From: Lepidurus packardi
Taxonomy: Eukaryota; Arthropoda; Branchiopoda; Notostraca; Triopsidae
Length of the DNA stretch: 64,000 bases
Assembly (NCBI GenBank): GCA_023053545.1
Contig: JAKZAN010000025.1
Coordinates: 185,025-249,024, forward strand
Reading direction: 5' to 3'
The position numbers and the translations under genes are program-made. Positions 1,400 through 64,000 of this stretch are shown one piece after another. The stretch's first letter is position 1; each line of letters starts with the position of its first letter. The notes under the pieces are model-generated. The model ran no database searches and was not told the origin of the DNA. It saw nothing but the letters and a program-made list of their open reading frames with translations.

Positions 1400-1512
1400 A
1401 ACGAAGGAATATAGTCATACATATTTTTATATATCAACAAAACCTTTGAATTTCCCGGGCGCACCTTGTAACCGATTGGTTCAAGCTCTTTCACCCACTA
1501 ATGAAGGTAAAT
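1400..1512 (+). repeat. left TIR, outer segment (copy 1)
   Basis: 113 bp matching the reverse complement of the outer part of the right TIR, for example AACGAAGG, a TATATATCAAC core and CACCCACTAATG. The differences include AATATAG against GATTTAG near the tip. The segment ends in TGAAGGTAAAT (1502-1512), the first copy of the target duplication made by the OTU insertion. Equivalent segments begin at 17688, 36428 and 49981. Confidence 0.85.
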
Positions 1513-1517
1513 GGATT

Positions 1518-1590
1518 GGCTATCACAACCCTTCTTCTAGACCGCGGCAACCGCTGCAACTCGCATAAAAGCGGGTTCAGCCATGTTAGG
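1518..1590 (+). repeat. left TIR of the OTU insertion
   Basis: Pairs with 3930-4010 in inverted orientation. The match is strong over the CCGCGG and GCGGGTT blocks and broken by small gaps nearer the tip, where the right side has extra CCACCTTTCCAGTTTT. Copies occur at 17806, 36546 and 50099. Confidence 0.75.
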
Positions 1591-1635
1591 GGAGGGGCTA
1601 GCGATCCGCTGCGAGGGTTGCATGCCGCAGCACAC

Positions 1636-1673
1636 TATATAAGGCCGTTGCATTGAACCATTCTTCCTTCAGT
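1636..1673 (+). promoter_or_regulatory. TATA box and initiator of the OTU gene
   Basis: TATATAAG at 1636-1643 is followed 35 nt later by TTCAGT at 1668-1673, a good match to the arthropod-type initiator, and the gene starts 290 nt downstream. The same pair occurs at 17924, 36664 and 50217. This is motif evidence only; transcription is not shown. Confidence 0.55.
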
Positions 1674-1791
1674 CCTTCACTGTGTTTCGCATGTTAGCTA
1701 GCAATTGTAGCGTAGTGCCTTATAGTGTAGTTCTTCTAACCCGGATTAATTATTTAATGTAGTTCCTCTTAACCTTGGATTAGATTTTTCA

Positions 1792-1933
1792 GTAAGGTTA
1801 TTTTTTATTGCATTCTGTGTTTCCCTTTGACTTTTTTCTTGGATTGATTATTTAGTTCTGTTCTTCTTTAACCCGGATTATTTTTTTCCCTCTTAACCCT
1901 GGATTAGATTATTTGACTTTTTTCTTCTAACAG
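1792..1933 (+). other. possible 142 nt intron in the OTU 5' leader
   Basis: A donor-like GTAAGG at 1792 and an acceptor with a long pyrimidine tract ending in TTCTTCTAACAG at 1933 could remove most of the leader between promoter and start codon. The leader also repeats a degenerate TTAACCCGGATTA motif four or five times. Both readings are weak. Confidence 0.3.
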
Positions 1934-1958
1934 ATTAACCCTTTCTCTCTTTACTAAT

Positions 1959-3119
1959 ATGAGTAAATCAAGGGCGCAGTTTTTTAAAAATTGTCTACGC
2001 GATCTTGAACGTAGAGCAAATTTGCCTGCGTCGGCCTACGATAGTTCTTCAAGAGCGCCCATACTGATTAGTAACGAACATTTCGAGAAGTTTAGGCAGG
2101 CGTGTTTTTCAAAGAAAACAGAGTTCGATGCTTACCCTCTCCCGAAGCGTATGGCAATATGACAATCTCAGAGTTTTAATATTGACCAAATTGACACAAC
2201 TGCTTCCAGTACTTTGCCCGAGCGTTTGAGCGAATGTTTAGCTTTGTGCAGCAATGGAGATGGGAATTGTTTCTACAATTCCGCTTCTTTGTCTTTGTTC
2301 GGCAACCAAAGGCATGCCGTTGAGTTGCGCTGCCGAGTTGTGGTCGAATTAGCAACCAATTATGAGTTGTACTCCAGGGAGTCGGCAGGATACCTCTCGA
2401 TGAAACAAATTGGAACCCTAGTCGAGTACTCAGGATTCACTTTCAACCGTGTTAAATTCACGGGCGTTGACTCAGTGTGCCCTACAGGTATTCCACCGGC
2501 GGAAGACTGTTTTAAGTACTATTCCATGGAACACGCCAGGGATCGGGAATATTCGAGCATTATTGCATTCCCAGCTTTGGCTAATGTTTGTAAGATAGCC
2601 GTGGAGTCAGTTTATCCGAAAGCGGATGGAATCAGAGCATCTCACCAAGCGAATTTCTTAAACGAGACGTTTTCACCAAGCGGTGCCGTTTCCTCTGAAA
2701 CTATTCGAATTTTGTGGACTGGGCTTTTGGCAAACTTCACGAAGAAGGAAAATGGACGTTTAGTCCCTCCAACATCCTGGAATCCCAATCATTTTGTGCC
2801 TGTGATTGAGCGTGCTAGTCAGTCACCCCTCTTTTTGTCAGAGAACTGCACTCTTCCGGTTCTTGATGTGGTAGAAACTGCGTCAGTTATTCCCAGTCAT
2901 CCAATTGAAACTGCAAATGTGATAACACCTGTTGCAGTTTCTTTTTGCAGCTCTATGCAAAATAGTAGTAGCGCTGTTAGTTCAGGGCTTCGCGAGTCGT
3001 TCTCGCATGAAAATTCAAGCTCAGATTTTGAATTGTCTGTCCCAAAAGCTTTTGCCGCAAATAATGGAGAGCACGAAGAAAATGTCACTAAAGCCTTTTT
3101 TCCCAAAACCATTGTTTAA
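1959..3119 (+). pseudogene. OTU-like cysteine protease, copy 1, broken by a stop at codon 68
   Basis: Same 386-codon frame as the intact gene at 18247-19407, but codon 68 is TGA (2160-2162) where copies 2 and 4 have TGG (Trp). The stop falls before the catalytic Cys at codon 104, so the first product would be a 67-residue fragment without active site; the open part downstream (from about 2163) keeps both catalytic boxes but has no ATG close to the break. Codon 163 is Asn here and Asp in the intact copies. Everything else in the frame looks undamaged, so the lesion is recent. Stop-codon readthrough is possible but not supported by any special signal I can see. Confidence 0.85.
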
Positions 3120-3929
3120 GCAAATATAAACTGACTGTATTCGAAACCGTAGGAGCTTATATACGGGTAGTTCAGGACGCAAATATAGAAAGTACAATAC
3201 AACAATAAGTCGTCCGAGTGCGGTCAATCAACAGTACAAGTAGAATAAGGTCAGATCACAGACTTACGTCAAATACCAAACAGAATCCCCCAACACCAAG
3301 GTTAATTAATACGAATACACATCCTTACACAAATACAACATTCCCTTTCTTTCCGGGGCATACATTTATCAAGGATACGATCATACGCTTTGAAACTCTC
3401 GATATGGCCGTCACGAAAAAAAGGCTTTCCTATTTTAGAGCTCCGGAAATTCTATGGGTCAAAGTAATATTCGTTACACCATAAGTAATAAGTTTACCAG
3501 TCATACTTGGTGTCTTACAAGAAGAATGGAACGAAGAAAAAAGTCAGCAGCAGCATCATACGTTCCCAAAGAAAAGTTTCGAACTTCTCGTCCTTTATTT
3601 TTTGTATTTAAGGTTTTTATTTTTTACTTAAGGTATTAATTAAAAGCATAATTCGGGCAATGGTCTTCTTAGTTAAAACTTGTTACTAAACAACAAAGGA
3701 TGAGGCTGTTGGGGTAACATTCAACTTTCACTGTACGTTTTTAGTCATATCAATATCCATTCCGTTTTATTTCTCAGTTGTCAAAAACCATACTGAACAC
3801 ATAATATTTATTCTTTTGGTTCTAAGCACCCTCGGGCGTCAGCCGCGGCAAAGCATGGGGAGAAAAATACAGATCACGTGCAACACTGTTGGTTTATGTG
3901 TTTTGCTGCTTTTAAGCCAACTCCTACAA
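3120..3929 (+). other. 3' region of the OTU insertion, copy 1
   Basis: Probable 3' untranslated region. Two overlapping short open frames (3218-3484 and 3454-3639) have no recognisable domain; the second ends in a basic, Ser/Ala-rich then hydrophobic string and might be debris of a longer C-terminus. An ATTAAA at 3639-3644 is the best polyadenylation-signal candidate. GC rises again near 3830-3900, just before the right TIR of the insertion. Confidence 0.4.
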
Positions 3930-4010
3930 CATGCCTAAACCCGCTTTTATGCGAGTTGCAGCGGATTGCCGCGGTCTGGAAAAACTGGAAAGGTGGGGTT
4001 GCAATAGCCT
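3930..4010 (-). repeat. right TIR of the OTU insertion
   Basis: Inverted partner of 1518-1590, with CCCGCTTTTATGCGAGTTGC and TTGCCGCGGTCT as the best-kept blocks. It is followed at 4016-4026 by the second TGAAGGTAAAT. Copies begin at 20218, 38958 and 52511. Confidence 0.75.
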
Positions 4011-4026
4011 AACGTTGAAGGTAAAT

Positions 4027-4093
4027 CAGTCTCAAGAGGCCTAATTAGACCTCTGCGCTTTGGCTGAGCAGTTTTTTTTGCTCATGACTGTAC
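4027..4093 (+). repeat. left TIR, inner segment (copy 1)
   Basis: 67 bp continuing the giant unit's left TIR after the OTU insertion. It matches the reverse complement of 17233-17299 with a single T/C difference in CAGTCTC and ends at GACTGTAC, beyond which the two ends of the unit are unrelated. Copies at 20315, 39055 and 52608. Confidence 0.88.
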
Positions 4094-5549
4094 TTTATAT
4101 TAACCTGTGAACTAATAAGCCACTTCACTAGTACGTATAAATATTACTATTATGCTTTATTGACTTACAGCTTCAACTGTCTTAAACATGGTGTGTTTAG
4201 AACCCGCATTCTCGAACCGCGAACTCGGTTTCAGTTTGGTGCAGTTGCCGCGAACAGATGTTTGTTACCGGTGTTCTAGATCTTTTTAAACAAATTATAT
4301 CACTCACATAAATAGGCCATTATTGATATGATCGGCGTTGACCCTAAATTGGCAGTGATTTGATTGATTTTTTTCGGAAAATTTACAGATCTGATCCAGA
4401 ACACTGCATGTTACAGCATCTAGCAAAAATTATATAACCAAAATAAAAAAAAATCATCGTCAAAGATCTTTTTCATAGCATATTTTTTATTATTATTTTT
4501 TTTTTAGATTAAAAAATTAATATACAAAAAATACGTCCAGCGAATAAACGTTACAGGAATCAGGAATAAGCGGCAAAAGAATTTATTATATTCACAGGAA
4601 TTTACATAAGCGGCACAGGAATTTAGAAAAGAAATATAAAAAATTAAAATTACAAAATGTACGCATGTACAAAATTAAAAAATTAAACAATTAAAACATT
4701 AAAACATTACAAAATTACAAATTTCTTTATGTTAAATCGGTTCTTTATGTTAGGTATTGGGAGTCCGTTGCTTTACCGCATGGAACTAATGGATTTGCGT
4801 CCGCGTGTCCTTTCTGTGCGATTCCGTTGGAGGAGTGGTCTAATCTTATTATTATATTGCAAAAATCTTAAATGAAGTCTTCTTTTTTTTGTTTATCTGT
4901 AGTCTTTTTAGGGTTAGTATTAATTTATTAAGTTTTTATAGCTTATAAAGAGCGTAGCACTGAAGATGCTAAGGAAGTTTTAGAATTTGAAAACATTAAA
5001 AAATTTAATTTTTTAACAAGAGTTAGCAGTTCTGTTTTTCCTTTTATTGTTTTCCTTTTATGTTATTAATTGATTATTAATGATCGGTTAGAATGTGTCA
5101 AGATAATTTATTTTTACGATAATTTATTTTGTCATAAATATAACATATTGTGATTGTTGAATTGTAACGTGTATTTAAGTTTTACTACTATCAATGGGGA
5201 CTGGGTACAGATTTAAAAGTAAGGATACGGAAAGGTACGGTGAGGCGGCTCGGGTATCGGCTGCATATTGGCTTCGACGTCTGTATGGCTTCGGGCGGAC
5301 TCGGTCCACGATGGCGGGGCGTTGTAAGCCACACATTTATTTACAACAACGAGTGTAAAGGTTCTGTTAAAGAACACCAATACAACACTTGTCATAAAAA
5401 ATGTGGGGCTCCTTTACTTATCTATCATTGTTAGACTACCTATGTAAGGATTAATTCCCAGTGCAATATTTTCCTTTTTACGGCATTATACACAGATAAA
5501 AGATATATGCACATATAAACAGTAAAGCTACCCTCCATAAAAAGCTTTC
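4094..5549. other. AT-rich non-coding stretch, copy 1
   Basis: No credible gene. Homopolymer runs and simple AT-rich repeats dominate (4440-4740), including several CAGGAAT/CACAGGAATTTA repeats at 4553-4625. Two short GC-richer islands stand out: about 4745-4840 and about 5215-5330. ORFs of 60 and 64 codons cross the second island on opposite strands, but neither resembles a protein I know. Confidence 0.5.
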
Positions 5550-8500
5550 TGTTATTTGCATTAAAAAAACCGAAAGGCATTTAAAGTACGCGAAATCAAT
5601 ACATAGATATAAACGAAATTTCGACATTTGAAGAAAGCACAGTTAAGGCAATCTAATTTTGTCGTTTTTATCAATTATTATATTACATTATTTGCATTCA
5701 AAAAACCGAAAGGCATTTAAAGTACGCGAAATCAATACATAGATATAAACGAAATTTCGACATTTGAAGAAAGCACAGTTAAGGCAATCTAATTTTGTCG
5801 TTTTTATCAATTATTATATTACATTATTTGCATTCAAAAAACCGAAAGGCATTTAAAGTACGCGAAATCAATACATAGATATAAACGAAATTTCGACATT
5901 TGAAGAAAGCACAGTTAAGGCAATCTAATTTTGTCGTTTTTATCAATTATTATATTATATTATTTGCATGCAAAAAACGAAATTTCGACATTTGAAGAAA
6001 GCACAGTTAAGGCAATCTAATTTTGTCGTTTTTATCAATTATTATATTATATTATTTGCATGCAAAAAACGAAATTTCGACATTTGAAGAAAGCACAGTT
6101 AAGGCAATCTAATTTTGTCGTTTTTATCAATTATTATATTATATTATTTGCATGCAAAAAACGAAATTTCGACATTTGAAGAAAGCACAGTTAAGGCAAT
6201 CTAATTTTGTCGTTTTTATCAATTATTATATTATATTATTTGCATGCAAAAAACGAAATTTCGACATTTGAAGAAAGCACAGTTAAGGCAATCTAATTTT
6301 GTCGTTTTTATCAATTATTATATTATATTATTTGCATGCAAAAAACGAAATTTCGACATTTGAAGAAAGCACAGTTAAGGCAATCTAATTTTGTCGTTTT
6401 TATCAATTATTATATTATATTATTTGCATGCAAAAAACGAAATTTCGACATTTGAAGAAAGCACAGTTAAGGCAATCTAATTTTGTCGTTTTTATCAATT
6501 ATTATATTATATTATTTGCATGCAAAAAACGAAATTTCGACATTTGAAGAAAGCACAGTTAAGGCAATCTAATTTTGTCGTTTTTATCAATTATTATATT
6601 ATATTATTTGCATGCAAAATACGAAATTTCGACATTTGAAGAAAGCACAGTTAAGGCAATCTAATTTTGTCGTTTTTATCAATTATTATATTATATTATT
6701 TGCATGCAAAAAACGAAATTTCGACATTTGAAGAAAGCACAGTTAAGGCAATCTAATTTTGTCGTTTTTATCAATTATTATATTATATTATTTGCATGCA
6801 AAAAACGAAATTTCGACATTTGAAGAAAGCACAGTTAAGGCAATCTAATTTTGTCGTTTTTATCAATTATTATATTATATTATTTGCATGCAAAAAACGA
6901 AATTTCGACATTTGAAGAAAGCACAGTTAAGGCAATCTAATTTTGTCGTTTTTATCAATTATTATATTATATTATTTGCATGCAAAAAACGAAATTTCGA
7001 CATTTGAAGAAAGCACAGTTAAGGCAATCTAATTTTGTCGTTTTTATCAATTATTATATTATATTATTTGCATGCAAAAAACGAAATTTCGACATTTGAA
7101 GAAAGCACAGTTAAGGCAATCTAATTTTGTCGTTTTTATCAATTATTATACTATATTATTTGCATTCAAAAAACCGAAAGGCATTTAAAGTACGCGAAAT
7201 CAATACATAGATATAAACGAAATTTCGACATTTGAAGAAAGCACAGTTAAGGCAATCTAATTTTGTCGTTTTTATCAATTATTATATTATATTATTTGCA
7301 TGCAAAAAACGAAATTTCGACATTTGAAGAAAGCACAGTTAAGGCAATCTAATTTTGTCGTTTTTATCAATTATTATATTATATTATTTGCATGCAAAAA
7401 ACGAAATTTCGACATTTGAAGAAAGCACAGTTAAGGCAATCTAATTTTGTCGTTTTTATCAATTATTATATTATATTATTTGCATGCAAAAAACGAAATT
7501 TCGACATTTGAAGAAAGCACAGTTAAGGCAATCTAATTTTGTCGTTTTTATCAATTATTATATTATATTATTTGCATGCAAAAAACGAAATTTCGACATT
7601 TGAAGAAAGCACAGTTAAGGCAATCTAATTTTGTCGTTTTTATCAATTATTATATTATATTATTTGCATGCAAAAAACGAAATTTCGACATTTGAAGAAA
7701 GCACAGTTAAGGCAATCTAATTTTGTCGTTTTTATCAATTATTATATTATATTATTTGCATGCAAAAAACGAAATTTCGACATTTGAAGAAAGCACAGTT
7801 AAGGCAATCTAATTTTGTCGTTTTTATCAATTATTATATTATATTATTTGCATGCAAAAAACGAAATTTCGACATTTGAAGAAAGCACAGTTAAGGCAAT
7901 CTAATTTTGTCGTTTTTATCAATTATTATATTATATTATTTGCATGCAAAATACGAAATTTCGACATTTGAAGAAAGCACAGTTAAGGCAATCTAATTTT
8001 GTCGTTTTTATCAATTATTATATTATATTATTTGCATGCAAAAAACGAAATTTCGACATTTGAAGAAAGCACAGTTAAGGCAATCTAATTTTGTCGTTTT
8101 TATCAATTATTATATTATATTATTTGCATGCAAAAAACGAAATTTCGACATTTGAAGAAAGCACAGTTAAGGCAATCTAATTTTGTCGTTTTTATCAATT
8201 ATTATATTATATTATTTGCATGCAAAAAACGAAATTTCGACATTTGAAGAAAGCACAGTTAAGGCAATCTAATTTTGTCGTTTTTATCAATTATTATATT
8301 ATATTATTTGCATGCAAAAAACGAAATTTCGACATTTGAAGAAAGCACAGTTAAGGCAATCTAATTTTGTCGTTTTTATCAATTATTATATTATATTATT
8401 TGCATGCAAAAAACGAAATTTCGACATTTGAAGAAAGCACAGTTAAGGCAATCTAATTTTGTCGTTTTTATCAATTATTATACTATATTATTTGCATTCA

Positions 8501-11500
8501 AAAAACCGAAAGGCATTTAAAGTACGCGAAATCAATACATAGATATAAACGAAATTTCGACATTTGAAGAAAGCACAGTTAAGGCAATCTAATTTTGTCG
8601 TTTTTATCAATTATTATATTATATTATTTGCATGCAAAAAACGAAATTTCGACATTTGAAGAAAGCACAGTTAAGGCAATCTAATTTTGTCGTTTTTATC
8701 AATTATTATATTATATTATTTGCATGCAAAAAACGAAATTTCGACATTTGAAGAAAGCAGAGTTAAGGCAATCTAATTTTGTCGTTTTTATCAATTATTA
8801 TATTATATTATTTGCATGCAAAAAACGAAATTTCGACATTTGAAGAAAGCACAGTTAAGGCAATCTAATTTTGTCGTTTTTATCAATTATTATATTATAT
8901 TATTTGCATGCAAAAAACCGAAAGGCATTTAAAGTACGCGAAATCAATACATAGATATAAACGAAATTTCGACATTTGAAGAAAGCACAGTTAAGGCAAT
9001 CTAATTTTGTCGTTTTTATCAATTATTATATTATATTATTTGCATGCAAAAAACGAAATTTCGACATTTGAAGAAAGCACAGTTAAGGCAATCTAATTTT
9101 GTCGTTTTTATCAATTATTATATTATATTATTTGCATGCAAAAAACGAAATTTCGACATTTGAAGAAAGCACAGTTAAGGCAATCTAATTTTGTCGTTTT
9201 TATCAATTATTATATTATATTATTTGCATGCAAAAAACCGAAAGGCATTTAAAGTACGCGAAATCAATACATAGATATAAACGAAATTTCGACATTTGAA
9301 GAAAGCACAGTTAAGGCAATCTAATTTTGTCGTTTTTATCAATTATTATATTATATTATTTGCATGCAAAAAACGAAATTTCGACATTTGAAGAAAGCAC
9401 AGTTAAGGCAATCTAATTTTGTCGTTTTTATCAATTATTATATTATATTATTTGCATGCAAAAAACGAAATTTCGACATTTGAAGAAAGCACAGTTAAGG
9501 CAATCTAATTTTGTCGTTTTTATCAATTATTATATTATATTATTTGCATGCAAAAAACGAAATTTCGACATTTGAAGAAAGCACAGTTAAGGCAATCTAA
9601 TTTTGTCGTTTTTATCAATTATTATATTATATTATTTGCATGCAAAAAACGAAATTTCGACATTTGAAGAAAGCACAGTTAAGGCAATCTAATTTTGTCG
9701 TTTTTATCAATTATTATATTATATTATTTGCATGCAAAAAACGAAATTTCGACATTTGAAGAAAGCACAGTTAAGGCAATCTAATTTTGTCGTTTTTATC
9801 AATTATTATATTATATTATTTGCATGCAAAAAACGAAATTTCGACATTTGAAGAAAGCACAGTTAAGGCAATCTAATTTTGTCGTTTTTATCAATTATTA
9901 TATTATATTATTTGCATGCAAAAAACGAAATTTCGACATTTGAAGAAAGCACAGTTAAGGCAATCTAATTTTGTCGTTTTTATCAATTATTATATTATAT
10001 TATTTGCATGCAAAAAACGAAATTTCGACATTTGAAGAAAGCACAGTTAAGGCAATCTAATTTTGTCGTTTTTATCAATTATTATATTATATTATTTGCA
10101 TGCAAAAAACGAAATTTCGACATTTGAAGAAAGCACAGTTAAGGCAATGTAATTTTGTCGTTTTTATCAATTATTATATTATATTATTTGCATGCAAAAA
10201 ACCGAAAGGCATTTAAAGTACGCGAAATCAATACATAGATATAAACGAAATTTCGACATTTGAAGAAAGCACAGTTAAGGCAATCTAATTTTGTCGTTTT
10301 TATCAATTATTATATTATATTATTTGCATGCAAAAAACGAAATTTCGACATTTGAAGAAAGCACAGTTAAGGCAATCTAATTTTGTCGTTTTTATCAATT
10401 ATTATATTATATTATTTGCATGCAAAAAACGAAATTTCGACATTTGAAGAAAGCACAGTTAAGGCAATCTAATTTTGTCGTTTTTATCAATTATTATATT
10501 ATATTATTTGCATGCAAAAAACGAAATTTCGACATTTGAAGAAAGCACAGTTAAGGCAATCTAATTTTGTCGTTTTTATCAATTATTATATTATATTATT
10601 TGCATGCAAAAAACGAAATTTCGACATTTGAAGAAAGCACAGTTAAGGCAATCTAATTTTGTCGTTTTTATCAATTATTATATTATATTATTTGCATTCA
10701 AAAAACCGAAAGGCATTTAAAGTACGCGAAATCAATACATAGATATAAACGAAATTTCGACATTTGAAGAAAGCACAGTTAAGGCAATCTAATTTTGTCG
10801 TTTTTATCAATTATTATATTATATTATTTGCATGCAAAAAACGAAATTTCGACATTTGAAGAAAGCACAGTTAAGGCAATCTAATTTTGTCGTTTTTATC
10901 AATTATTATATTATATTATTTGCATGCAAAAAACGAAATTTCGACATTTGAAGAAAGCACAGTTAAGGCAATCTAATTTTGTCGTTTTTATCAATTATTA
11001 TATTATATTATTTGCATGCAAAAAACGAAATTTCGACATTTGAAGAAAGCACAGTTAAGGCAATCTAATTTTGTCGTTTTTATCAATTATTATATTATAT
11101 TATTTGCATGCAAAAAACGAAATTTCGACATTTGAAGAAAGCACAGTTAAGGCAATCTAATTTTGTCGTTTTTATCAATTATTATATTATATTATTTGCA
11201 TGCAAAAAACGAAATTTCGACATTTGAAGAAAGCACAGTTAAGGCAATCTAATTTTGTCGTTTTTATCAATTATTATATTATATTATTTGCATGCAAAAA
11301 ACGAAATTTCGACATTTGAAGAAAGCACAGTTAAGGCAATCTAATTTTGTCGTTTTTATCAATTATTATATTATATTATTTGCATGCAAAAAACGAAATT
11401 TCGACATTTGAAGAAAGCACAGTTAAGGCAATCTAATTTTGTCGTTTTTATCAATTATTATATTATATTATTTGCATTCAAAAAACCGAAAGGCATTTAA

Positions 11501-11590
11501 AGTACGCGAAATCAATACATAGATATAAACGAAATTTCGACATTTGAAGAAAGCACAGTTAAGGCAATCTAATTTTGTCGTTTTTATCAA
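5550..11590 (+). repeat. 92/136 bp minisatellite array, copy 1 (about 60 monomers)
   Basis: Head-to-tail monomers of two lengths: a long form of 136 bp and a short form of 92 bp. The long form has 44 extra bases, flanked by AAAC repeats, between the AAAAAAC tract and GAAATTTCG. About ten long forms occur; the array starts with three and ends with one, the rest being mostly short. Each monomer contains two palindromes five bases apart, TGCATGCA (or TGCATTCA) and CGAAATTTCG. A 1332 bp higher-order duplication is visible: rare variants at 6620/7151 recur at 7952/8483. The right edge (11591-11670) is a diverged monomer that overlaps the 57-codon ORF. Confidence 0.95.
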
Positions 11591-11630
11591 GCTCAAGCAG
11601 CAGAAACGTCAATCGAAATCGAAAGAACAG

Positions 11631-11804
11631 TCAATGTAGTCTAATTTTGTCATTTTTGTAAAGTTCAATGAGGGGCTGGGTATGAATTTTATCGTCCAGG
11701 TAATCAGAAAACCTAGGATCATTGACAATGTCTTGTTCATCGCGAAAAGCATCTTGAATATACTTAACATAGAAACGGGTATGTTCACCGTTCACGGTGT
11801 CCAT
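11631..11804 (-). CDS. 57-residue ORF directly downstream of the 284-residue gene, copy 1
   Basis: The ATG at 11804-11802 lies two bases after the stop of the upstream gene (TAG, GT, ATG) and the frame ends with TGA at 11633-11631. The peptide is protein-like, rich in charged and aromatic residues (MDTVNGEHTRFYVKY, then DPRFSDYLDD), and matches nothing I recognise. It could be reached by reinitiation after the upstream stop, or the TAG-GTATGG junction could be a splice donor that would make this intron. Its last codons overlap a sequence clearly homologous to the adjacent minisatellite monomer, so the minisatellite probably arose from the 3' end of this gene. No separate promoter is visible. 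Confidence 0.45.
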   Translation of the reverse strand: MDTVNGEHTRFYVKYIQDAFRDEQDIVNDPRFSDYLDDKIHTQPLIELYKNDKIRLH

Positions 11805-11806
11805 AC

Positions 11807-12661
11807 CTAAGTCTCATTCTGTAATTTCCTCTCCAAAGCCCTGATTTTTTTGTGAGCTTTTATTAGTTCCGCATTCTTCCCTCTCAAAACAGCGTGTAAC
11901 TGACAGGCCTTTTGCTTTTCACGATCATTGTTCTGCAAGCGCTTGCATAAAGCGAAATATTTTTTATACAAGTTGCGAAACTTTTGCCTGTAAGAGCAAT
12001 TGTGATTTATACTTATTGCCTGCTTTGGAATCTGTCTATGGGAAGAGGGGTTAACAACCTGAGGCTGAGAAACCGCGTTTCTTCTCTGTGAAGAAGACTC
12101 AGCATCAGAGTCAGACAGAGCAAAATTATCCTCAATTAGCACAGCCGGCTGTGAAAGCTTACTACTACCACCATTACCTGCAGATGCTTGTGGTTGTGTA
12201 CAACTACTGGTACTATTATTACTGCTGCAGTTAAAAAATTCGAATGGCTGTCTCTTGAAATTTTCGATTGTATCTAATTTTCCCGGACAACTGGTGTCAA
12301 TCTTCATCAAGCGGATTAAACCCATCTTCAGCTTTTTAGCTCGTGCAACTAATGACCTGAGCAAGTTTTCTTCACTAACGTTCAATCTAGTTCTAGAACT
12401 ACCTTCCACTTCCAGTGAAAAAATAGACACGATCCAGCTTAAAAAATCTTTTCGCTTCGCATGCTTTCTTTTAGACTGCTCCAGAAAAAGATTGTGAAGC
12501 TCAAGAACGACTCCATTACTTAAAAAAGGTTTCGGCCTGGCAATGGAAGTCCAAGTATCCAACGTCTTCAAGTGACTCTTTAATATCCCTATTTCATCAC
12601 AGAACGGACCAATACGGTCATCATCATTAACATCAGGACTTGAAGTTGAACTTGAAGCCAT
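11807..12661 (-). CDS. unrecognised 284-residue protein with basic patch and C-terminal coiled coil, copy 1
   Basis: I do not recognise this family. Residues 1-15 are Ser/Asp-rich. Residues 15-125 look helical and globular and include a basic patch SKRKHAKRKD (63-72), a possible nuclear signal. Residues 140-215 are low-complexity, with Ser/Asn runs and an acidic Ser patch DSDAESSS (184-191) typical of CK2 sites. Residues 223-284 are strongly charged with regular leucines and suggest a coiled coil. The start is well supported by an in-frame TAA 21 nt upstream. The gene is uninterrupted in all three copies. It lies head-on to the 207 bp promoter-like array and is followed by the 57-codon ORF. 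A DNA-binding or structural role for the element is guesswork. Confidence 0.8.
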   Translation of the reverse strand: MASSSTSSPDVNDDDRIGPFCDEIGILKSHLKTLDTWTSIARPKPFLSNGVVLELHNLFLEQSKRKHAKRKDFLSWIVSIFSLEVEGSSRTRLNVSEENLLRSLVARAKKLKMGLIRLMKIDTSCPGKLDTIENFKRQPFEFFNCSSNNSTSSCTQPQASAGNGGSSKLSQPAVLIEDNFALSDSDAESSSQRRNAVSQPQVVNPSSHRQIPKQAISINHNCSYRQKFRNLYKKYFALCKRLQNNDREKQKACQLHAVLRGKNAELIKAHKKIRALERKLQNET

Positions 12662-13183
12662 ACCGTAATGCGAAATGCGTTAATAACGGACTCAAATTAA
12701 CTAATTAAGTTTTACTTTGAGGTTTTACTTTGATGATAATTGATTAAATCGATTTCAATCAGTCAAGCTTAATTTTGATAGGATAATATTAATTATAAAT
12801 TAAATAAAATTGAGTTGAGTTTGACTCACAATTTGGTTGTTTTTTGGGTTCTTCTTGTCTTCGACTTGAGCTTGACGTTCACCAAGACGTTCACACGTAA
12901 GTAGGGTGTTGACACGTAGGGTGTTGTCTCAACGACTCAAGCAAAAACACTGACCAAATGGATTGGACCAAAAATGGTTTAGCTTCGCTTTAGCAGGGTG
13001 AAATTAAACTAGCTTTCAATAGAAAACCAGATATAAAAATATCTGGCTTTCTATTCAGTCGAGCCTTGAGTTCCAGATCCAGATTATCAATCCCCAAAGC
13101 GCAAACGGCTTATTTCCACGATTTCGAACCATTTTCAAAACGATCAATCTCGTTTTCTTGTACTGTGTATACCATGAGGTGAT
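12662..13183. other. upstream region of the 284-residue gene, copy 1
   Basis: Non-coding, AT-rich. On the minus strand it is the likely promoter of the gene ending at 11807; TTTATAAT-like sequence near 12795 is the only TATA candidate and is weak. An imperfect hairpin at 13018-13055 pairs AATAGAAA and CCAGATAT with ATATCTGG and CTTTCTATT around an AAAA loop. Confidence 0.4.
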
Positions 13184-13277
13184 GAAGGAGAAATGCAAAA
13201 CCAACCTCCCAACAAACTTTTCCTAAGGCTTAGCTTAGGAAAAGTTTGTTGGGAGGTTGGTTTTGCATTTCTCCTTC
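13184..13277. repeat. perfect 44 bp-arm hairpin, copy 1
   Basis: Arms 13184-13227 and 13234-13277 are exact reverse complements around a 6 bp centre GCTTAG. No mismatch is present in this or the other two copies, which is unusual for idle DNA and suggests either recent origin or correction between arms. Confidence 0.95.
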
Positions 13278-52510: not shown

Positions 52511-52607
52511 CATGCCTAAACCCGCTTTTATGCGAGTTGCAGCGGATTGCCGCGGTCTGGAAAAACTGGAAAGGTGGGGTTGCAATAGCCTAACGTTGAA
52601 GGTAAAT

Positions 52608-52674
52608 CAGTCTCAAGAGGCCTAATTAGACCTCTGCGCTTTGGCTGAGCAGTTTTTTTTGCTCATGACTGTAC
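52608..52674 (+). repeat. left TIR, inner segment (copy 4)
   Basis: Same 67 bp as 4027-4093. Confidence 0.88.
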
Positions 52675-54132
52675 TTTATATTAACCTGTGAACTAATAAG
52701 CCACTTCACTAGTACGTATAAATATTACTATTATGCTTTATTGACTTACAGCTTCAACTGTCTTAAACATGGTGTGTTTAGAACCCGCATTCTCGAACCG
52801 CGAACTCGGTTTCAGTTTGGTGCAGTTGCCGCGAACAGATGTTTGTTACCGGTGTTCTAGATCTTTTTAAACAAATTATATCACTCACATAAATAGGCCA
52901 TTATTGATATGATCGGCGTTGACCCTAAATTGGCAGTGATTTGATTGATTTTTTTCGGAAAATTTACAGATCTGATCCAGAACACTGCATGTTACAGCAT
53001 CTAGCAAAAATTATATAACCAAAATAAAAAAAAAATCATCGTCAAAGATCTTTTTCATAGCATATTTTTTATTATTATTTTTTTTTTAGATTAAAAAATT
53101 AATATACAAAAAATACGTCCAGCGAATAAACGTTACAGGAATCAGGAATAAGCGGCAAAAGAATTTATTATATTCACAGGAATTTACATAAGCGGCACAG
53201 GAATTTAGAAAAGAAATATAAAAAATTAAAATTACAAAATGTACGCATGTACAAAATTAAAAAATTAAACAATTAAAACATTAAAACATTACAAAATTAC
53301 AAATTTCTTTATGTTAAATCGGTTCTTTATGTTAGGTATTGGGAGTCCGTTGCTTTACCGCATGGAACTAATGGATTTGCGTCCGCGTGTCCTTTCTGTG
53401 CGATTCCGTTGGAGGAGTGGTCTAATCTTATTATTATATTGCAAAAATCTTAAATGAAGTCTTCTTTTTTTTGTTTATCTGTAGTCTTTTTAGGGTTAGT
53501 ATTAATTTATTAAGTTTTTATAGCTTATAAAGAGCGTAGCACTGAAGATGCTAAGGAAGTTTTAGAATTTGAAAACATTAAAAAATTTAATTTTTTAACA
53601 AGAGTTAGCAGTTCTGTTTTTCCTTTTATTGTTTTCCTTTTATGTTATTAATTGATTATTAATGATCGGTTAGAATGTGTCAAGATAATTTATTTTTACG
53701 ATAATTTATTTTGTCATAAATATAACATATTGTGATTGTTGAATTGTAACGTGTATTTAAGTTTTACTACTATCAATGGGGACTGGGTACAGATTTAAAA
53801 GTAAGGATACGGAAAGGTACGGTGAGGCGGCTCGGGTATCGGCTGCATATTGGCTTCGACGTCTGTATGGCTTCGGGCGGACTCGGTCCACGATGGCGGG
53901 GCGTTGTAAGCCACACATTTATTTACAACAACGAGTGTAAAGGTTCTGTTAAAGAACACCAATACAACACTTGTCATAAAAAATGTGGGGCTCCTTTACT
54001 TATCTATCATTGTTAGACTACCTATGTAAGGATTAATTCCCAGTGCAATATTTTCCTTTTTACGGCATTATACACAGATAAAAGATATATGCACATATAA
54101 ACAGTAAAGCTACCCTCCATAAAAAGCTTTCT
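52675..54132. other. AT-rich non-coding stretch, copy 4
   Basis: Equivalent of 4094-5549; nothing new seen. Confidence 0.5.
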
Positions 54133-57100
54133 GTTATTTGCATTCAAAAAACCGAAAGGCATTTAAAGTACGCGAAATCAATACATAGATATAAACGAAA
54201 TTTCGACATTTGAAGAAAGCACAGTTAAGGCAATCTAATTTTGTCGTTTTTATCAATTATTATATTATATTATTTGCATGCAAAAAACGAAATTTCGACA
54301 TTTGAAGAAAGCACAGTTAAGGCAATCTAATTTTGTCGTTTTTATCAATTATTATATTATATTATTTGCATGCAAAAAACGAAATTTCGACATTTGAAGA
54401 AAGCACAGTTAAGGCAATCTAATTTTGTCGTTTTTATCAATTATTATATTATATTATTTGCATGCAAAAAACGAAATTTCGACATTTGAAGAAAGCACAG
54501 TTAAGGCAATCTAATTTTGTCGTTTTTATCAATTATTATATTATATTATTTGCATGCAAAAAACGAAATTTCGACATTTGAAGAAAGCACAGTTAAGGCA
54601 ATCTAATTTTGTCGTTTTTATCAATTATTATATTATATTATTTGCATGCAAAAAACGAAATTTCGACATTTGAAGAAAGCACAGTTAAGGCAATCTAATT
54701 TTGTCGTTTTTATCAATTATTATATTATATTATTTGCATGCAAAAAACCGAAAGGCATTTAAAGTACGCGAAATCAATACATAGATATAAACGAAATTTC
54801 GACATTTGAAGAAAGCACAGTTAAGGCAATCTAATTTTGTCGTTTTTATCAATTATTATATTATATTATTTGCATGCAAAAAACGAAATTTCGACATTTG
54901 AAGAAAGCACAGTTAAGGCAATCTAATTTTGTCGTTTTTATCAATTATTATATTATATTATTTGCATGCAAAAAACGAAATTTCGACATTTGAAGAAAGC
55001 ACAGTTAAGGCAATCTAATTTTGTCGTTTTTATCAATTATTATATTATATTATTTGCATGCAAAAAACGAAATTTCGACATTTGAAGAAAGCACAGTTAA
55101 GGCAATCTAATTTTGTCGTTTTTATCAATTATTATATTATATTATTTGCATGCAAAAAACCGAAAGGCATTTAAAGTACGCGAAATCAATACATAGATAT
55201 AAACGAAATTTCGACATTTGAAGAAAGCACAGTTAAGGCAATCTAATTTTGTCGTTTTTATCAATTATTATATTATATTATTTGCATGCAAAAAACGAAA
55301 TTTCGACATTTGAAGAAAGCACAGTTAAGGTAATCTAATTTTGTCGTTTTTATCAATTATTATATTATATTATTTGCATGCAAAAAACCGAAAGGCATTT
55401 AAAGTACGCGAAATCAATACATAGATATAAACGAAATTTCGACATTTGAAGAAAGCACAGTTAAGGCAATCTAATTTTGTCGTTTTTATCAATTATTATA
55501 TTATATTATTTGCATGCAAAAAACGAAATTTCGACATTTGAAGAAAGCACAGTTAAGGCAATCTAATTTTGTCGTTTTTATCAATTATTATATTATATTA
55601 TTTGCATGCAAAAAACGAAATTTCGACATTTGAAGAAAGCACAGTTAAGGCAATCTAATTTTGTCGTTTTTATCAATTATTATATTATATTATTTGCATG
55701 CAAAAAACCGAAAGGCATTTAAAGTACGCGAAATCAATACATAGATATAAACGAAATTTCGACATTTGAAGAAAGCATAGTTAAGGCAATCTAATTTTGT
55801 CGTTTTTATCAATTATTATATTATATTATTTGCATGCAAAAAACGAAATTTCGACATTTGAAGAAAGCACAGTTAAGGCAATCTAATTTTGTCGTTTTTA
55901 TCAATTATTATATTATATTATTTGCATGCAAAAAACGAAATTTCGACATTTGAAGAAAGCACAGTTAAGGCAATCTAATTTTGTCGTTTTTATCAATTAT
56001 TATATTATATTATTTGCATGCAAAAAACGAAATTTCGACATTTGAAGAAAGCACAGTTAAGGCAATCTAATTTTGTCGTTTTTATCAATTATTATATTAT
56101 ATTATTTGCATGCAAAAAACCGAAAGGCATTTAAAGTACGCGAAATCAATACATAGATATAAACGAAATTTCGACATTTGAAGAAAGCACAGTTAAGGCA
56201 ATCTAATTTTGTCGTTTTTATCAATTATTATATTATATTATTTGCATGCAAAAAACGAAATTTCGACATTTGAAGAAAGCACAGTTAAGGCAATCTAATT
56301 TTGTCGTTTTTATCAATTATTATATTATATTATTTGCATGCAAAAAACGAAATTTCGACATTTGAAGAAAGCACAGTTAAGGCAATCTAATTTTGTCGTT
56401 TTTATCAATTATTATATTATATTATTTGCATGCAAAAAACGAAATTTCGACATTTGAAGAAAGCACAGTTAAGGCAATCTAATTTTGTCGTTTTTATCAA
56501 TTATTATATTATATTATTTGCATGCAAAAAACCGAAAGGCATTTAAAGTACGCGAAATCAATACATAGATATAAACGAAATTTCGACATTTGAAGAAAGC
56601 ACAGTTAAGGCAATCTAATTTTGTCGTTTTTATCAATTATTATATTATATTATTTGCATGCAAAAAACGAAATTTCGACATTTGAAGAAAGCACAGTTAA
56701 GGTAATCTAATTTTGTCGTTTTTATCAATTATTATATTATATTATTTGCATGCAAAAAACCGAAAGGCATTTAAAGTACGCGAAATCAATACATAGATAT
56801 AAACGAAATTTCGACATTTGAAGAAAGCACAGTTAAGGCAATCTAATTTTGTCGTTTTTATCAATTATTATATTATATTATTTGCATGCAAAAAACGAAA
56901 TTTCGACATTTGAAGAAAGCACAGTTAAGGCAATCTAATTTTGTCGTTTTTATCAATTATTATATTATATTATTTGCATGCAAAAAACGAAATTTCGACA
57001 TTTGAAGAAAGCACAGTTAAGGCAATCTAATTTTGTCGTTTTTATCAATTATTATATTATATTATTTGCATGCAAAAAACCGAAAGGCATTTAAAGTACG

Positions 57101-60100
57101 CGAAATCAATACATAGATATAAACGAAATTTCGACATTTGAAGAAAGCATAGTTAAGGCAATCTAATTTTGTCGTTTTTATCAATTATTATATTATATTA
57201 TTTGCATGCAAAAAACGAAATTTCGACATTTGAAGAAAGCACAGTTAAGGCAATCTAATTTTGTCGTTTTTATCAATTATTATATTATATTATTTGCATG
57301 CAAAAAACGAAATTTCGACATTTGAAGAAAGCACAGTTAAGGCAATCTAATTTTGTCGTTTTTATCAATTATTATATTATATTATTTGCATGCAAAAAAC
57401 GAAATTTCGACATTTGAAGAAAGCACAGTTAAGGCAATCTAATTTTGTCGTTTTTATCAATTATTATATTATATTATTTGCATGCAAAAAACGAAATTTC
57501 GACATTTGAAGAAAGCACAGTTAAGGCAATCTAATTTTGTCGTTTTTATCAATTATTATATTATATTATTTGCATGCAAAAAACGAAATTTCGACATTTG
57601 AAGAAAGCACAGTTAAGGCAATCTAATTTTGTCGTTTTTATCAATTATTATATTATATTATTTGCATGCAAAAAACGAAATTTCGACATTTGAAGAAAGC
57701 ACAGTTAAGGCAATCTAATTTTGTCGTTTTTATCAATTATTATATTATATTATTTGCATGCAAAAAACGAAATTTCGACATTTGAAGAAAGCACAGTTAA
57801 GGCAATCTAATTTTGTCGTTTTTATCAATTATTATATTATATTATTTGCATGCAAAAAACGAAATTTCGACATTTGAAGAAAGCACAGTTAAGGCAATCT
57901 AATTTTGTCGTTTTTATCAATTATTATATTATATTATTTGCATGCAAAAAACCGAAAGGCATTTAAAGTACGCGAAATCAATACATAGATATAAACGAAA
58001 TTTCGACATTTGAAGAAAGCACAGTTAAGGCAATCTAATTTTGTCGTTTTTATCAATTATTATATTATATTATTTGCATGCAAAAAACGAAATTTCGACA
58101 TTTGAAGAAAGCACAGTTAAGGCAATCTAATTTTGTCGTTTTTATCAATTATTATATTATATTATTTGCATGCAAAAAACGAAATTTCGACATTTGAAGA
58201 AAGCACAGTTAAGGCAATCTAATTTTGTCGTTTTTATCAATTATTATATTATATTATTTGCATGCAAAAAACGAAATTTCGACATTTGAAGAAAGCACAG
58301 TTAAGGCAATCTAATTTTGTCGTTTTTATCAATTATTATATTATATTATTTGCATGCAAAAAACGAAATTTCGACATTTGAAGAAAGCACAGTTAAGGCA
58401 ATCTAATTTTGTCGTTTTTATCAATTATTATATTATATTATTTGCATGCAAAAAACCGAAAGGCATTTAAAGTACGCGAAATCAATACATAGATATAAAC
58501 GAAATTTCGACATTTGAAGAAAGCACAGTTAAGGCAATCTAATTTTGTCGTTTTTATCAATTATTATATTATATTATTTGCATGCAAAAAACCGAAAGGC
58601 ATTTAAAGTACGCGAAATCAATACATAGATATAAACGAAATTTCGACATTTGAAGAAAGCACAGTTAAGGCAATCTAATTTTGTCGTTTTTATCAATTAT
58701 TATATTATATTATTTGCATGCAAAAAACGAAATTTCGACATTTGAAGAAAGCACAGTTAAGGCAATCTAATTTTGTCGTTTTTATCAATTATTATATTAT
58801 ATTATTTGCATGCAAAAAACGAAATTTCGACATTTGAAGAAAGCACAGTTAAGGCAATCTAATTTTGTCGTTTTTATCAATTATTATATTATATTATTTG
58901 CATGCAAAAAACGAAATTTCGACATTTGAAGAAAGCACAGTTAAGGCAATCTAATTTTGTCGTTTTTATCAATTATTATATTATATTATTTGCATGCAAA
59001 AAACCGAAAGGCATTTAAAGTACGCGAAATCAATACATAGATATAAACGAAATTTCGACATTTGAAGAAAGCACAGTTAAGGCAATCTAATTTTGTCGTT
59101 TTTATCAATTATTATATTATATTATTTGCATGCAAAAAACGAAATTTCGACATTTGAAGAAAGCACAGTTAAGGCAATCTAATTTTGTCGTTTTTATCAA
59201 TTATTATATTATATTATTTGCATGCAAAAAACGAAATTTCGACATTTGAAGAAAGCACAGTTAAGGCAATCTAATTTTGTCGTTTTTATCAATTATTATA
59301 TTATATTATTTGCATGCAAAAAACCGAAAGGCATTTAAAGTACGCGAAATCAATACATAGATATAAACGAAATTTCGACATTTGAAGAAAGCACAGTTAA
59401 GGCAATCTAATTTTGTCGTTTTTATCAATTATTATATTATATTATTTGCATGCAAAAAACGAAATTTCGACATTTGAAGAAAGCACAGTTAAGGCAATCT
59501 AATTTTGTCGTTTTTATCAATTATTATATTATATTATTTGCATGCAAAAAACGAAATTTCGACATTTGAAGAAAGCACAGTTAAGGCAATCTAATTTTGT
59601 CGTTTTTATCAATTATTATATTATATTATTTGCATGCAAAAAACGAAATTTCGACATTTGAAGAAAGCACAGTTAAGGCAATCTAATTTTGTCGTTTTTA
59701 TCAATTATTATATTATATTATTTGCATGCAAAAAACGAAATTTCGACATTTGAAGAAAGCACAGTTAAGGCAATCTAATTTTGTCGTTTTTATCATTTAT
59801 TATATTATATTATTTGCATGCAAAAAACCGAAAGGCATTTAAAGTACGCGAAATCAATACATAGATATAAACGAAATTTCGACATTTGAAGAAAGCACAG
59901 TTAAGGCAATCTAATTTTGTCGTTTTTATCAATTATTATATTATATTATTTGCATGCAAAAAACGAAATTTCGACATTTGAAGAAAGCACAGTTAAGGCA
60001 ATCTAATTTTGTCGTTTTTATCAATTATTATATTATATTATTTGCATGCAAAAAACGAAATTTCGACATTTGAAGAAAGCACAGTTAAGGCAATCTAATT

Positions 60101-63100
60101 TTGTCGTTTTTATCAATTATTATATTATATTATTTGCATGCAAAAAACGAAATTTCGACATTTGAAGAAAGCACAGTTAAGGCAATCTAATTTTGTCGTT
60201 TTTATCAATTATTATATTATATTATTTGCATGCAAAAAACCGAAAGGCATTTAAAGTACGCGAAATCAATACATAGATATAAACGAAATTTCGACATTTG
60301 AAGAAAGCACAGTTAAGGCAATCTAATTTTGTCGTTTTTATCAATTATTATATTATATTATTTGCATGCAAAAAACGAAATTTCGACATTTGAAGAAAGC
60401 ACAGTTAAGGCAATCTAATTTTGTCGTTTTTATCAATTATTATATTATATTATTTGCATGCAAAAAACGAAATTTCGACATTTGAAGAAAGCACAGTTAA
60501 GGCAATCTAATTTTGTCGTTTTTATCAATTATTATATTATATTATTTGCATGCAAAAAACCGAAAGGCATTTAAAGTACGCGAAATCAATACATAGATAT
60601 AAACGAAATTTCGACATTTGAAGAAAGCACAGTTAAGGCAATCTAATTTTGTCGTTTTTATCAATTATTATATTATATTATTTGCATGCAAAAAACGAAA
60701 TTTCGACATTTGAAGAAAGCACAGTTAAGGCAATCTAATTTTGTCGTTTTTATCAATTATTATATTATATTATTTGCATGCAAAAAACGAAATTTCGACA
60801 TTTGAAGAAAGCACAGTTAAGGCAATCTAATTTTGTCGTTTTTATCAATTATTATATTATATTATTTGCATTCAAAAAACCGAAAGGCATTTAAAGTACG
60901 CGAAATCAATACATAGATATAAACGAAATTTCGACATTTGAAGAAAGCACAGTTAAGGCAATCTAATTTTGTCGTTTTTATCAATTATTATATTATATTA
61001 TTTGCATGCAAAAAACGAAATTTCGACATTTGAAGAAAGCACAGTTAAGGCAATCTAATTTTGTCGTTTTTATCAATTATTATATTATATTATTTGCATG
61101 CAAAAAACGAAATTTCGACATTTGAAGAAAGCACAGTTAAGGCAATCTAATTTTGTCGTTTTTATCAATTATTATATTATATTATTTGCATTCAAAAAAC
61201 CTAAAGGCATTTAAAGTACGCGAAATCAATACATAGATATAAACGAAATTTCGACATTTGAAGAAAGCACAGTTAAGGCAATCTAATTTTGTCGTTTTTA
61301 TCAATTATTATATTATATTATTTGCATGCAAAAAACGAAATTTCTACATTTGAAGAAAGCACAGTTAAGGCAATCTAATTTTGTCGTTTTTATCAATTAT
61401 TATATTATATTATTTGCATGCAAAAAACGAAATTTCGACATTTGAAGAAAGCACAGTTAAGGCAATCTAATTTTGTCGTTTTTATCAATTATTATATTAT
61501 ATTATTTGCATGCAAAAAACCGAAAGGCATTTAAAGTACGCGAAATCAATACATAGATATAAACGAAATTTCGACATTTGAAGAAAGCACAGTTAAGGCA
61601 ATCTAATTTTGTCGTTTTTATCAATTATTATATTATATTATTTGCATGCAAAAAACGAAATTTCGACATTTGAAGAAAGCACAGTTAAGGCAATCTAATT
61701 TTGTCGTTTTTATCAATTATTATATTATATTATTTGCATGCAAAAAACGAAATTTCGACATTTGAAGAAAGCACAGTTAAGGCAATCTAATTTTGTCGTT
61801 TTTATCCATTATTATATTATATTATTTGCATGCAAAAAACGAAATTTCGACATTTGAAGAAAGCACAGTTAAGGCAATCTAATTTTGTCGTTTTTATCAA
61901 TTATTATATTATATTATTTGCATGCAAAAAACGAAATTTCGACATTTGAAGAAAGCACAGTTAAGGCAATCTAATTTTGTCGTTTTTATCAATTATTATA
62001 TTATATTATTTGCATGCAAAAAACGAAATTTCGACATTTGAAGAAAGCACAGTTAAGGCAATCTAATTTTGTCGTTTTTATCAATTATTATATTATATTA
62101 TTTGCATGCAAAAAACCGAAAGGCATTTAAAGTACGCGAAATCAATACATAGATATAAACGAAATTTCGACATTTGAAGAAAGCACAGTTAAGGCAATCT
62201 AATTTTGTCGTTTTTATCAATTATTATATTATATTATTTGCATGCAAAAAACGAAATTTCGACATTTGAAGAAAGCACAGTTAAGGCAATCTAATTTTGT
62301 CGTTTTTATCAATTATTATATTATATTATTTGCATGCAAAAAACGAAATTTCGACATTTGAAGAAAGCACAGTTAAGGCAATCTAATTTTGTCGTTTTTA
62401 TCAATTATTATATTATATTATTTGCATGCAAAAAACGAAATTTCGACATTTGAAGAAAGCACAGTTAAGGCAATCTAATTTTGTCGTTTTTATCAATTAT
62501 TATATTATATTATTTGCATGCAAAAAACCGAAAGGCATTTAAAGTACGCGAAATCAATACATAGATATAAACGAAATTTCGACATTTGAAGAAAGCACAG
62601 TTAAGGCAATCTAATTTTGTCGTTTTTATCAATTATTATATTATATTATTTGCATGCAAAAAACGAAATTTCGACATTTGAAGAAAGCACAGTTAAGGTA
62701 ATCTAATTTTGTCGTTTTTATCAATTATTATATTATATTATTTGCATGCAAAAAACCGAAAGGCATTTAAAGTACGCGAAATCAATACATAGATATAAAC
62801 GAAATTTCGACATTTGAAGAAAGCACAGTTAAGGCAATCTAATTTTGTCGTTTTTATCAATTATTATATTATATTATTTGCATGCAAAAAACGAAATTTC
62901 GACATTTGAAGAAAGCACAGTTAAGGCAATCTAATTTTGTCGTTTTTATCAATTATTATATTATATTATTTGCATGCAAAAAACGAAATTTCGACATTTG
63001 AAGAAAGCACAGTTAAGGCAATCTAATTTTGTCGTTTTTATCAATTATTATATTATATTATTTGCATGCAAAAAACCGAAAGGCATTTAAAGTACGCGAA

Positions 63101-64000
63101 ATCAATACATAGATATAAACGAAATTTCGACATTTGAAGAAAGCATAGTTAAGGCAATCTAATTTTGTCGTTTTTATCAATTATTATATTATATTATTTG
63201 CATGCAAAAAACGAAATTTCGACATTTGAAGAAAGCACAGTTAAGGCAATCTAATTTTGTCGTTTTTATCAATTATTATATTATATTATTTGCATGCAAA
63301 AAACGAAATTTCGACATTTGAAGAAAGCACAGTTAAGGCAATCTAATTTTGTCGTTTTTATCAATTATTATATTATATTATTTGCATGCAAAAAACGAAA
63401 TTTCGACATTTGAAGAAAGCACAGTTAAGGCAATCTAATTTTGTCGTTTTTATCAATTATTATATTATATTATTTGCATGCAAAAAACCGAAAGGCATTT
63501 AAAGTACGCGAAATCAATACATAGATATAAACGAAATTTCGACATTTGAAGAAAGCACAGTTAAGGCAATCTAATTTTGTCGTTTTTATCAATTATTATA
63601 TTATATTATTTGCATGCAAAAAACGAAATTTCGACATTTGAAGAAAGCACAGTTAAGGCAATCTAATTTTGTCGTTTTTATCAATTATTATATTATATTA
63701 TTTGCATGCAAAAAACGAAATTTCGACATTTGAAGAAAGCACAGTTAAGGCAATCTAATTTTGTCGTTTTTATCAATTATTATATTATATTATTTGCATG
63801 CAAAAAACGAAATTTCGACATTTGAAGAAAGCACAGTTAAGGCAATCTAATTTTGTCGTTTTTATCAATTATTATATTATATTATTTGCATGCAAAAAAC
63901 CGAAAGGCATTTAAAGTACGCGAAATCAATACATAGATATAAACGAAATTTCGACATTTGAAGAAAGCACAGTTAAGGCAATCTAATTTTGTCGTTTTTA
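54133..64000 (+). repeat. 92/136 bp minisatellite array, copy 4 (at least about 95 monomers)
   Basis: Nearly 9.9 kb and still continuing at the window edge. Starts with one long monomer; about 26 long forms occur, typically one per two to four short forms, a denser pattern than in copies 1 and 3. Paired rare variants (GGTAATC at 55331, 56703, 62699 and GCATAG at 55778, 57150, 63146) recur at identical offsets, exposing higher-order block duplications of 1372 and 5996 bp. Confidence 0.95.

Follow-up and report, generated by a model that had tools for sequence, protein, structure and literature searches.

The stretch of the Lepidurus packardi genome analysed here (the window: 64,000 bases, positions 185025-249024 of contig JAKZAN010000025.1, hereafter C20) is the terminal part of a 249,024-bp contig in an assembly of 108.56 Mb and 344 contigs (GCA_023053545.1). 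With the rest of C20 mapped, the contig is found to be almost wholly a tandem array of one DNA transposon, which we call E. Self-comparison of the window shows four near-identical units in the same orientation, the first and last incomplete (Table 1). The original prediction, made from the letters of the window, described near-identical head-to-tail units with two variable-number tandem repeat (VNTR) arrays, took them for a large DNA element amplified in tandem, and saw no transposase gene; all of this holds. Units across C20 differ by 0-6 substitutions per 1.9 kb and 0-12 per 5.8 kb (partial units scored over shared columns only), and the eight open reading frames (ORFs) of at least 150 aa in the window, the longest of 386 aa, include none of transposase length in the units. 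Scans for tRNAs and Rfam families gave no matches. The array continues beyond the window, with additional units on contigs C21 and C6; copies of the OTU-like ORF described below number at least 12 on C20, at least two on C21 and at least two on C6.

The boundaries of the unit are not where they had been placed, at terminal inverted repeats (TIRs) of about 180 bp. They lie at joints at 16879/16881, 35619/35621 and 49172/49174 (giving complete units of 18,739 and 13,552 bp), and the first of these positions is where dispersed relatives of the unit stop matching. Genome-wide, 20 ends of E were fetched (6 left, 14 right), and these either start with TAGGGAGGCC(G/T)(G/T)TCGA or finish with CCGGCCTCCCTA. 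Only eight ends could be paired for the test of target-site duplications (TSDs), the unpaired ones including one left and one right edge of the array and one right end in an array on contig C4. Three of the four pairs, from solo copies of E, are flanked by 7-bp duplications (ACTTGCC, GTTACAT and CCTGTCC), and a proposed check for single dispersed copies with target duplications, run with corrected ends, thus found them. Repeats resembling both VNTRs recur beside dispersed pieces of E. The real unit is E, a DNA transposon that has TIRs of 16 bp and contains both VNTRs, and the array copy is a non-autonomous, defective version.

Every 92-bp array listed is of a different length, and the 207-bp arrays are equal in length in two neighbouring units (repeat patterns were compared by eye only). 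The repeat of about 207 bp has a TATAAATA box, and its array, in the right-hand part of E, thus resembles a series of promoter-like units. The pair of palindromes inside E is also found in several of its dispersed pieces.

In the array, successive copies of E abut, the right tip of one against the left tip of the next. A search of the whole genome (108.6 Mb) for the exact tip pattern with 0-30 bp between tips found 11 such joints, eight on C20, two on C21 and one on C6, all on contigs of the array; the backward control of the same search found none. The tips are separated by one base at 10 of the 11 joints (in the orientation of E, T in nine and A in one) and by none at the other, and no joint with exact tips has 2-30 bp between them. 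A row of complete, equally oriented copies with a near-constant joint is the organisation known from the Bari1 cluster of Drosophila melanogaster, discussed below. The exceptions in the C20 array are an inverted block and two units without a right tip, which was lost from both via one shared deletion. The joint is the interesting part of this locus; the protein-coding part appears to be transposon remnant.

Table 1. Features of the window (positions count from its first base)
Feature	Position	Strand	Remarks
Unit 1 of E	1088..16879	+	right tip complete, ends 16879; left tip not present
Unit 2 of E	16881..35619	+	complete copy, TIR to TIR; 18,739 bp
Unit 3 of E	35621..49172	+	complete copy; 13,552 bp
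Unit 4 of E	49174..64000	+	incomplete; C20 ends within its 92-bp repeat array
16-bp TIR of E			TAGGGAGGCCGGTCGA
E-E joint	16865..16895		31-bp palindrome; right and left TIR on either side of a single T, CCCTA-T-TAGGG
E-E joint	35605..35635		sequence as at 16865..16895
E-E joint	49158..49188		sequence as at 16865..16895
92/136-bp repeat array	5552..11590		part of E; others about 21842-29090, 40581-45290, 54134-64000
About 207-bp repeat array	13546..16049	+	part of E; TATAAATA in repeat; others 31046-34834, 47247-48387
Two near-perfect palindromes, side by side	13184..13325		inside E; 94 and about 47 bp; also at 30682, 46885
284-aa ORF	11807..12661	-	N-terminal stub of the 1,229-aa protein of E; others 29305-30159, 45508-46362
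Putative Tc1/mariner-type MITE	17236..20378		TIRs about 180 bp, 275-bp core, TA-flanked, split by OTU segment; others 35976-39118, 49529-52671, LTR-interrupted 1088-4090
2.5-kb MULE deletion derivative	17801..20303	+	has TIRs of its own; TGAAGGTAAAT on either side, up to 11 bp; others 1513-4015, 36541-39043, 50094-52596
OTU-like ORF, 386 aa	18247..19407	+	others 50540-51700 (open), 1959-3119 and 36987-38147 (TGA at codon 68)
LTR retrotransposon end, cut by the window	1..1087	-	inserted in MITE TIR; LTR 687-1087; minus-strand ORF 2-592

Nested elements and truncated genes within E

The features from which the unit had first been delimited are present, namely inverted repeats of about 180 bp and a 275-bp spacer of constant length (17413-17687), but they are neither unit ends nor an inter-unit spacer. 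A unit bounded by these repeats was rejected because the whole TIR-core-TIR block is itself dispersed, as a miniature inverted-repeat transposable element (MITE) of about 640 bp. It occurs at no fewer than five loci (L016-L020), where the core and the two ends are all matched, the main pieces at about 96-100%, with partial matches at further loci. The array copies, like three of the five dispersed ones, are bordered by TA at either end; those at L017 and L018 have common flanks, with the TA altered. By these sequence marks the 640-bp element appears to be a MITE of Tc1/mariner type. False unit boundaries can evidently arise from a nested MITE with long inverted repeats.

The right-hand inverted repeat is likewise there, but split in two by a 2,503-bp OTU segment, whose own inverted ends are about 57 bp long (91%) and whose flanking duplication reaches 11 bp; target duplications of Mutator-like elements (MULEs) range over about 8-11 bp. 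The ORF in this segment matches the OTU profile PF02338 weakly (E=0.035, below the cut-off) and contains the motifs DGNC at 101 and NPNHF at 275, which may correspond to OTU catalytic residues. A PDB sequence search returned only OTUD7B (E=1.6 and 1.8), and a single-sequence AlphaFold2 model, with a pLDDT (predicted local distance difference test) score of 35.6, is uninformative. The ORF is open in two of the four window copies and interrupted in the other two; in the whole array, among the copies listed, 12 of 16 are full length and open, three have a TGA and one is cut. The OTU protease of the original prediction stands as an OTU-like ORF, but not as a stand-alone gene, since it is an N-terminal piece of a MULE protein. 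Its residues 1-380 match the N terminus of many dispersed long open frames, and the sole relative fetched (L050) is a 1,357-aa frame with an OTU-like start, C2H2 fingers and the MULE transposase domain PF10551 (E=1.5e-10, 41.8 bits against a cut-off of 27.6). On these matches, an OTU gene as functional cargo was rejected as the main explanation of the array. L050 and an array copy are 99.4% identical in DNA over 1,364 bp, and the two ORFs show 4 non-synonymous and 3 synonymous differences, numbers too small for a judgement on selection. The segment and MULE transposons are alike in the OTU-like region, in the C2H2 fingers and PF10551 of the relative, and in a duplication of up to 11 bp; the segment differs in being nested cargo in an array rather than the repeating unit.

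The supposedly novel coiled-coil protein has a similar history. A minus-strand ORF of 284 aa is indeed there, but longer open frames at other genomic loci begin with a matching sequence, and it was for that reason rejected as a stand-alone gene. One of these loci (L051) encodes a 1,229-aa frame, of whose gene the array copy lacks about 2.6 kb through a single internal deletion; its last 59 codons are kept in the array, in another frame. Position and mobile context make the 1,229-aa protein the putative transposase of E. Its PDB sequence search gave two weak, unrelated matches (best E=0.61). Relatives at about 32% identity to it, which make up a second family, several with near-identical scores at different places, are found on C33, C46, C1, C5, C8 and C16, which indicates that the E protein belongs to a family, and at C5:10490-10505 kb a long open gene resembling the putative E transposase, 100% identical to the query, occurs three times in tandem, 5,565 bp apart.

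Eleven of the 12 full-length 284-aa ORFs listed in the array are open, and three more are cut or in pieces. Comparison with the copy in the C4 array over the variable first 160 codons gives a non-synonymous rate (dN) of 0.0964 and a synonymous rate (dS) of 0.1145, no clear sign of selection; this ratio is weak evidence because the C4 copy is a mosaic, its second half nearly identical to the window copy and its first half diverged. The OTU-like and 284-aa ORFs look like transposon remnants or passengers, not host genes and not the purpose of the array. The C4 copy as fetched stops at the same point as the array copy, and so shares its internal deletion. It comes from a tandem array at C4:1557-1603 kb with units of about 6-9 kb and a diverged short E (one copy read, L072). 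At the one right end of E fetched there (L064), other DNA follows E, and for that reason the C4 array looks like a segmental duplication rather than a tip-to-tip array.

Edges of the array and superfamily marks of E

A single dispersed repeat, equally oriented on both sides, provides the left flank of the array (C6:706167; 28 matches listed) and the right one (C21:84895; 30 matches listed), each count taking in the flank itself. Genome copies of the repeat that have both flanks mostly have them 154-155 bp apart, with about 180 bp in two (distances worked out from match tables). Since chance rarely gives such matching flanks, C6, C20 and C21 are probably parts of one locus, from which about 155 bp of host repeat would be missing.

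The superfamily marks of E conflict. Its TIR begins TAGGG, which fits YARNG, the start of hAT TIRs. The duplication in the three duplicated pairs is 7 bp, not the 8 bp of hAT (an eighth base matches in two or in one of the three pairs, depending on side), and among Pfam matches taken at E<=1 for the whole E protein and E<=10 for two parts of it there is no hAT dimerisation domain. The same 7 bp is the target duplication given for Galileo, of the P superfamily, in the section of PMC2775673 cited here, and no P-type transposase is among the Pfam matches listed for the protein. Tc1/mariner is indicated neither by the 7-bp TSDs nor by Pfam, where the 1,229-aa protein has no Tc1 match. As judged from these sequences the tips appear hAT-like and the duplication P-like, and Pfam backs neither.

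Origin of the array

The original prediction held that more than ordinary dispersed insertion is needed here (a circle, a concatemer or duplication), and we agree. It seems to us probable, if by no means certain, that in the array a non-autonomous E forms a head-to-tail concatemer, produced when a tip-fused circle was copied and then reintegrated. One deleted E, carrying the MITE and the OTU-MULE fragment in its left part, would have been excised, and its ends would have fused into a circle, leaving the odd base. Rolling-circle replication or re-replication would have copied the circle, and the concatemer would have inserted at one site, probably on C6, to be reshaped later by unit exchange, VNTR length change, inversion at MITE TIRs and insertion of long terminal repeat (LTR) elements. 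The joints, with one base or none, favour a circle closed at its tips and then copied into a concatemer. The transposases of hAT elements nick one base outside the element. Episomes of hobo and Hermes, as tabulated in Table 3 of PMC2803484, include ones with a single A or T between their fused tips.

Several points weigh on the other side. The evidence is assembly sequence, in which no circle or read is seen, and the exact-tip search would miss joints with altered tips. The excision chemistry would have to be borrowed, by analogy, from hAT elements, and the transposase identity of the 1,229-aa protein comes from its place in E, the protein having no confident match in Pfam or PDB. The fourth pair of E ends (C3:2166k and 2146k, 20 kb apart) has no TSD, and may not be one element. 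No 7-bp duplication spans the two inferred edges of the array, where about 155 bp of host repeat is gone. An OTU haplotype is common to the non-neighbouring units 2, 9 and 11 in the C20 comparison, and the adjacent units 3 and 4 are identical over the compared parts and have a common deletion, which means that local duplication does occur. Unequal crossing-over from one starting dimer would also yield identical joints.

This last process is the core of a possible but unlikely alternative, in which a second E inserted beside the first and the dimer expanded by unequal crossing-over with no need of a circle. Local duplication as in units 3 and 4 is what it would require, and there is a reported case: the part of PMC12628747 cited here describes a hobo tandem grown to 16 copies (McGurk and Barbash 2018), with double or multiple insertion among the proposed routes to a dimer. 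The hobo tandem resembles the E array as a DNA transposon in tandem able to seed a satellite, but the 1-bp joint of E fits double insertion poorly. E makes 7-bp duplications, and a second insertion would normally leave a spacer of that kind or repeat the end of the first copy, whereas none of the 11 exact-tip joints has a spacer of 2-30 bp. Unequal crossing-over could explain the growth of the array, but less simply the 1-bp joint of its first dimer.

We consider improbable a third route, in which aberrant transposition during replication (re-replication or a sister-chromatid event) made the tandem copies where the donor stood and, as a by-product, removed about 155 bp alongside. The inferred edges, with precise E tips and yet the host repeat gone, are what such events could leave, and the ends of maize Ac, through alternative transposition, generate tandem duplications, deletions and rolling-circle replicons according to the portion of PMC4270019 cited here. 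The Ac events described there carry flanking host DNA, whereas one base or none lies between copies of E.

A megasatellite kept by selection, for the OTU-like or coiled-coil protein or as a structural satellite, is very improbable: the many open full-length frames among the array copies listed (12 of 16 and 11 of 12) need no selection at this level of unit similarity, both ORFs are truncated transposon proteins, four OTU copies are broken (three by a stop, one cut), and dN stands close to dS in the 284-aa ORF over the codons compared with the mosaic C4 copy. Duplication of a single unit by the assembler is scarcely credible, for although both ends of C20 fall inside a 92-bp array and the data are assembly only, the units carry different substitutions, insertions and private deletions, their VNTRs are unlike in length and pattern, and the joint is present on three contigs, one of them of 10.7 Mb.

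The concatemer formed from a tip-fused circle, our preferred explanation, has its closest precedent in the Bari1 cluster, another case of precise head-to-tail whole DNA transposons with one constant joint. In the sections of PMC8834629 cited here, the cluster lies in the h39 heterochromatin of D. melanogaster, comprises about 80 head-to-tail copies, each without its first two nucleotides, is given a proposed rolling-circle-like origin, and is said to have no comparable described example. The Bari1 joint is thus short of two nucleotides, whereas that of E has one extra base at 10 of 11. A nested retrotransposon is found in both (in Bari1, to judge by a paper title cited there). E is larger than Bari1, a Tc1/mariner element, and is nested, deleted and of another kind, with at least 16 copies, and its array has inversions. 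The E array offers a second case for asking whether cut-and-paste transposons amplify from circles and so found satellites.

Other comparisons are looser. The episomes of hobo and Hermes (PMC2803484, in the part cited) have ends fused with no base or a few, and some reintegrated. They are free circles of known hAT elements with 8-bp targets, whereas E has a 7-bp TSD and only its integrated concatemer is seen here. In Atlantic cod, tandem MITEs derived from hAT elements are described at inversion breakpoints in the cited part of PMC12368964; they resemble the E array in their tandem copies, inverted repeats and inversions, but are arrays of short MITEs, not of whole 13-19 kb elements joined tip to tip. 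A literature search by general words showed no description of E among the papers listed, and a query for OTU with MULE gave no paper. Relatives looked for in IMG/VR gave three and two pattern matches, none of them confirmed. The array is real and unusual, a rare arrangement; it is no new kind of gene system. A bolder claim, that E is an undescribed kind of DNA transposon (16-bp TAGGGAGG TIRs, 7-bp duplication, a 1,229-aa protein with no confident Pfam match, two VNTRs) regularly copied via tip-fused circles, with concatemers as a normal product of its life cycle, strikes us as quite unlikely.

Inversions, later insertions and mitochondrial copies

Along C20 the array runs in plus orientation as far as 116.4 kb, lies inverted from there to about 172 kb, and is plus again up to the end of the contig. 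Successive joints are 10.8 to 58 kb apart (two of the positions behind this range were assigned by us, for the units without a right tip); the two longest distances contain insertions of LTR elements, and one also contains an inversion joint. The LTR element cut by the left end of the window extends over C20:172329-186111, with LTR copies at 172329-172729 and 185711-186111, termini TGTCACG..CGTGACA and a 4-bp ATAT duplication. Read through, its flanks form a single MITE arm, and the OTU elements to either side face away from it. The inversion joint at C20:172245-186111 appears to be of the form that recombination between the inverted arms of MITEs would give, with the LTR element also inserted; the other, at C20:116383, joins unlike sequences. 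Further LTR elements lie on C20 at 60.2-66.0 kb and 149.5-157.8 kb.

Nuclear copies of cox1 are many in this assembly (C6:697-698 kb, C21:89-90 kb, and on C4, C2, C1 and C38), and two of them lie less than 8 kb from the two inferred edges of the array. Translated with the invertebrate mitochondrial code, which arthropods use (TGA=W, AGA=S, ATA=M), the C6 copy gives cytochrome oxidase, and there is a single stop in the 631 bases fetched. Contigs C52, C43 and C214 have cox1-family genes without stops under the standard code, and are probably contigs of a bacterial symbiont or contaminant.

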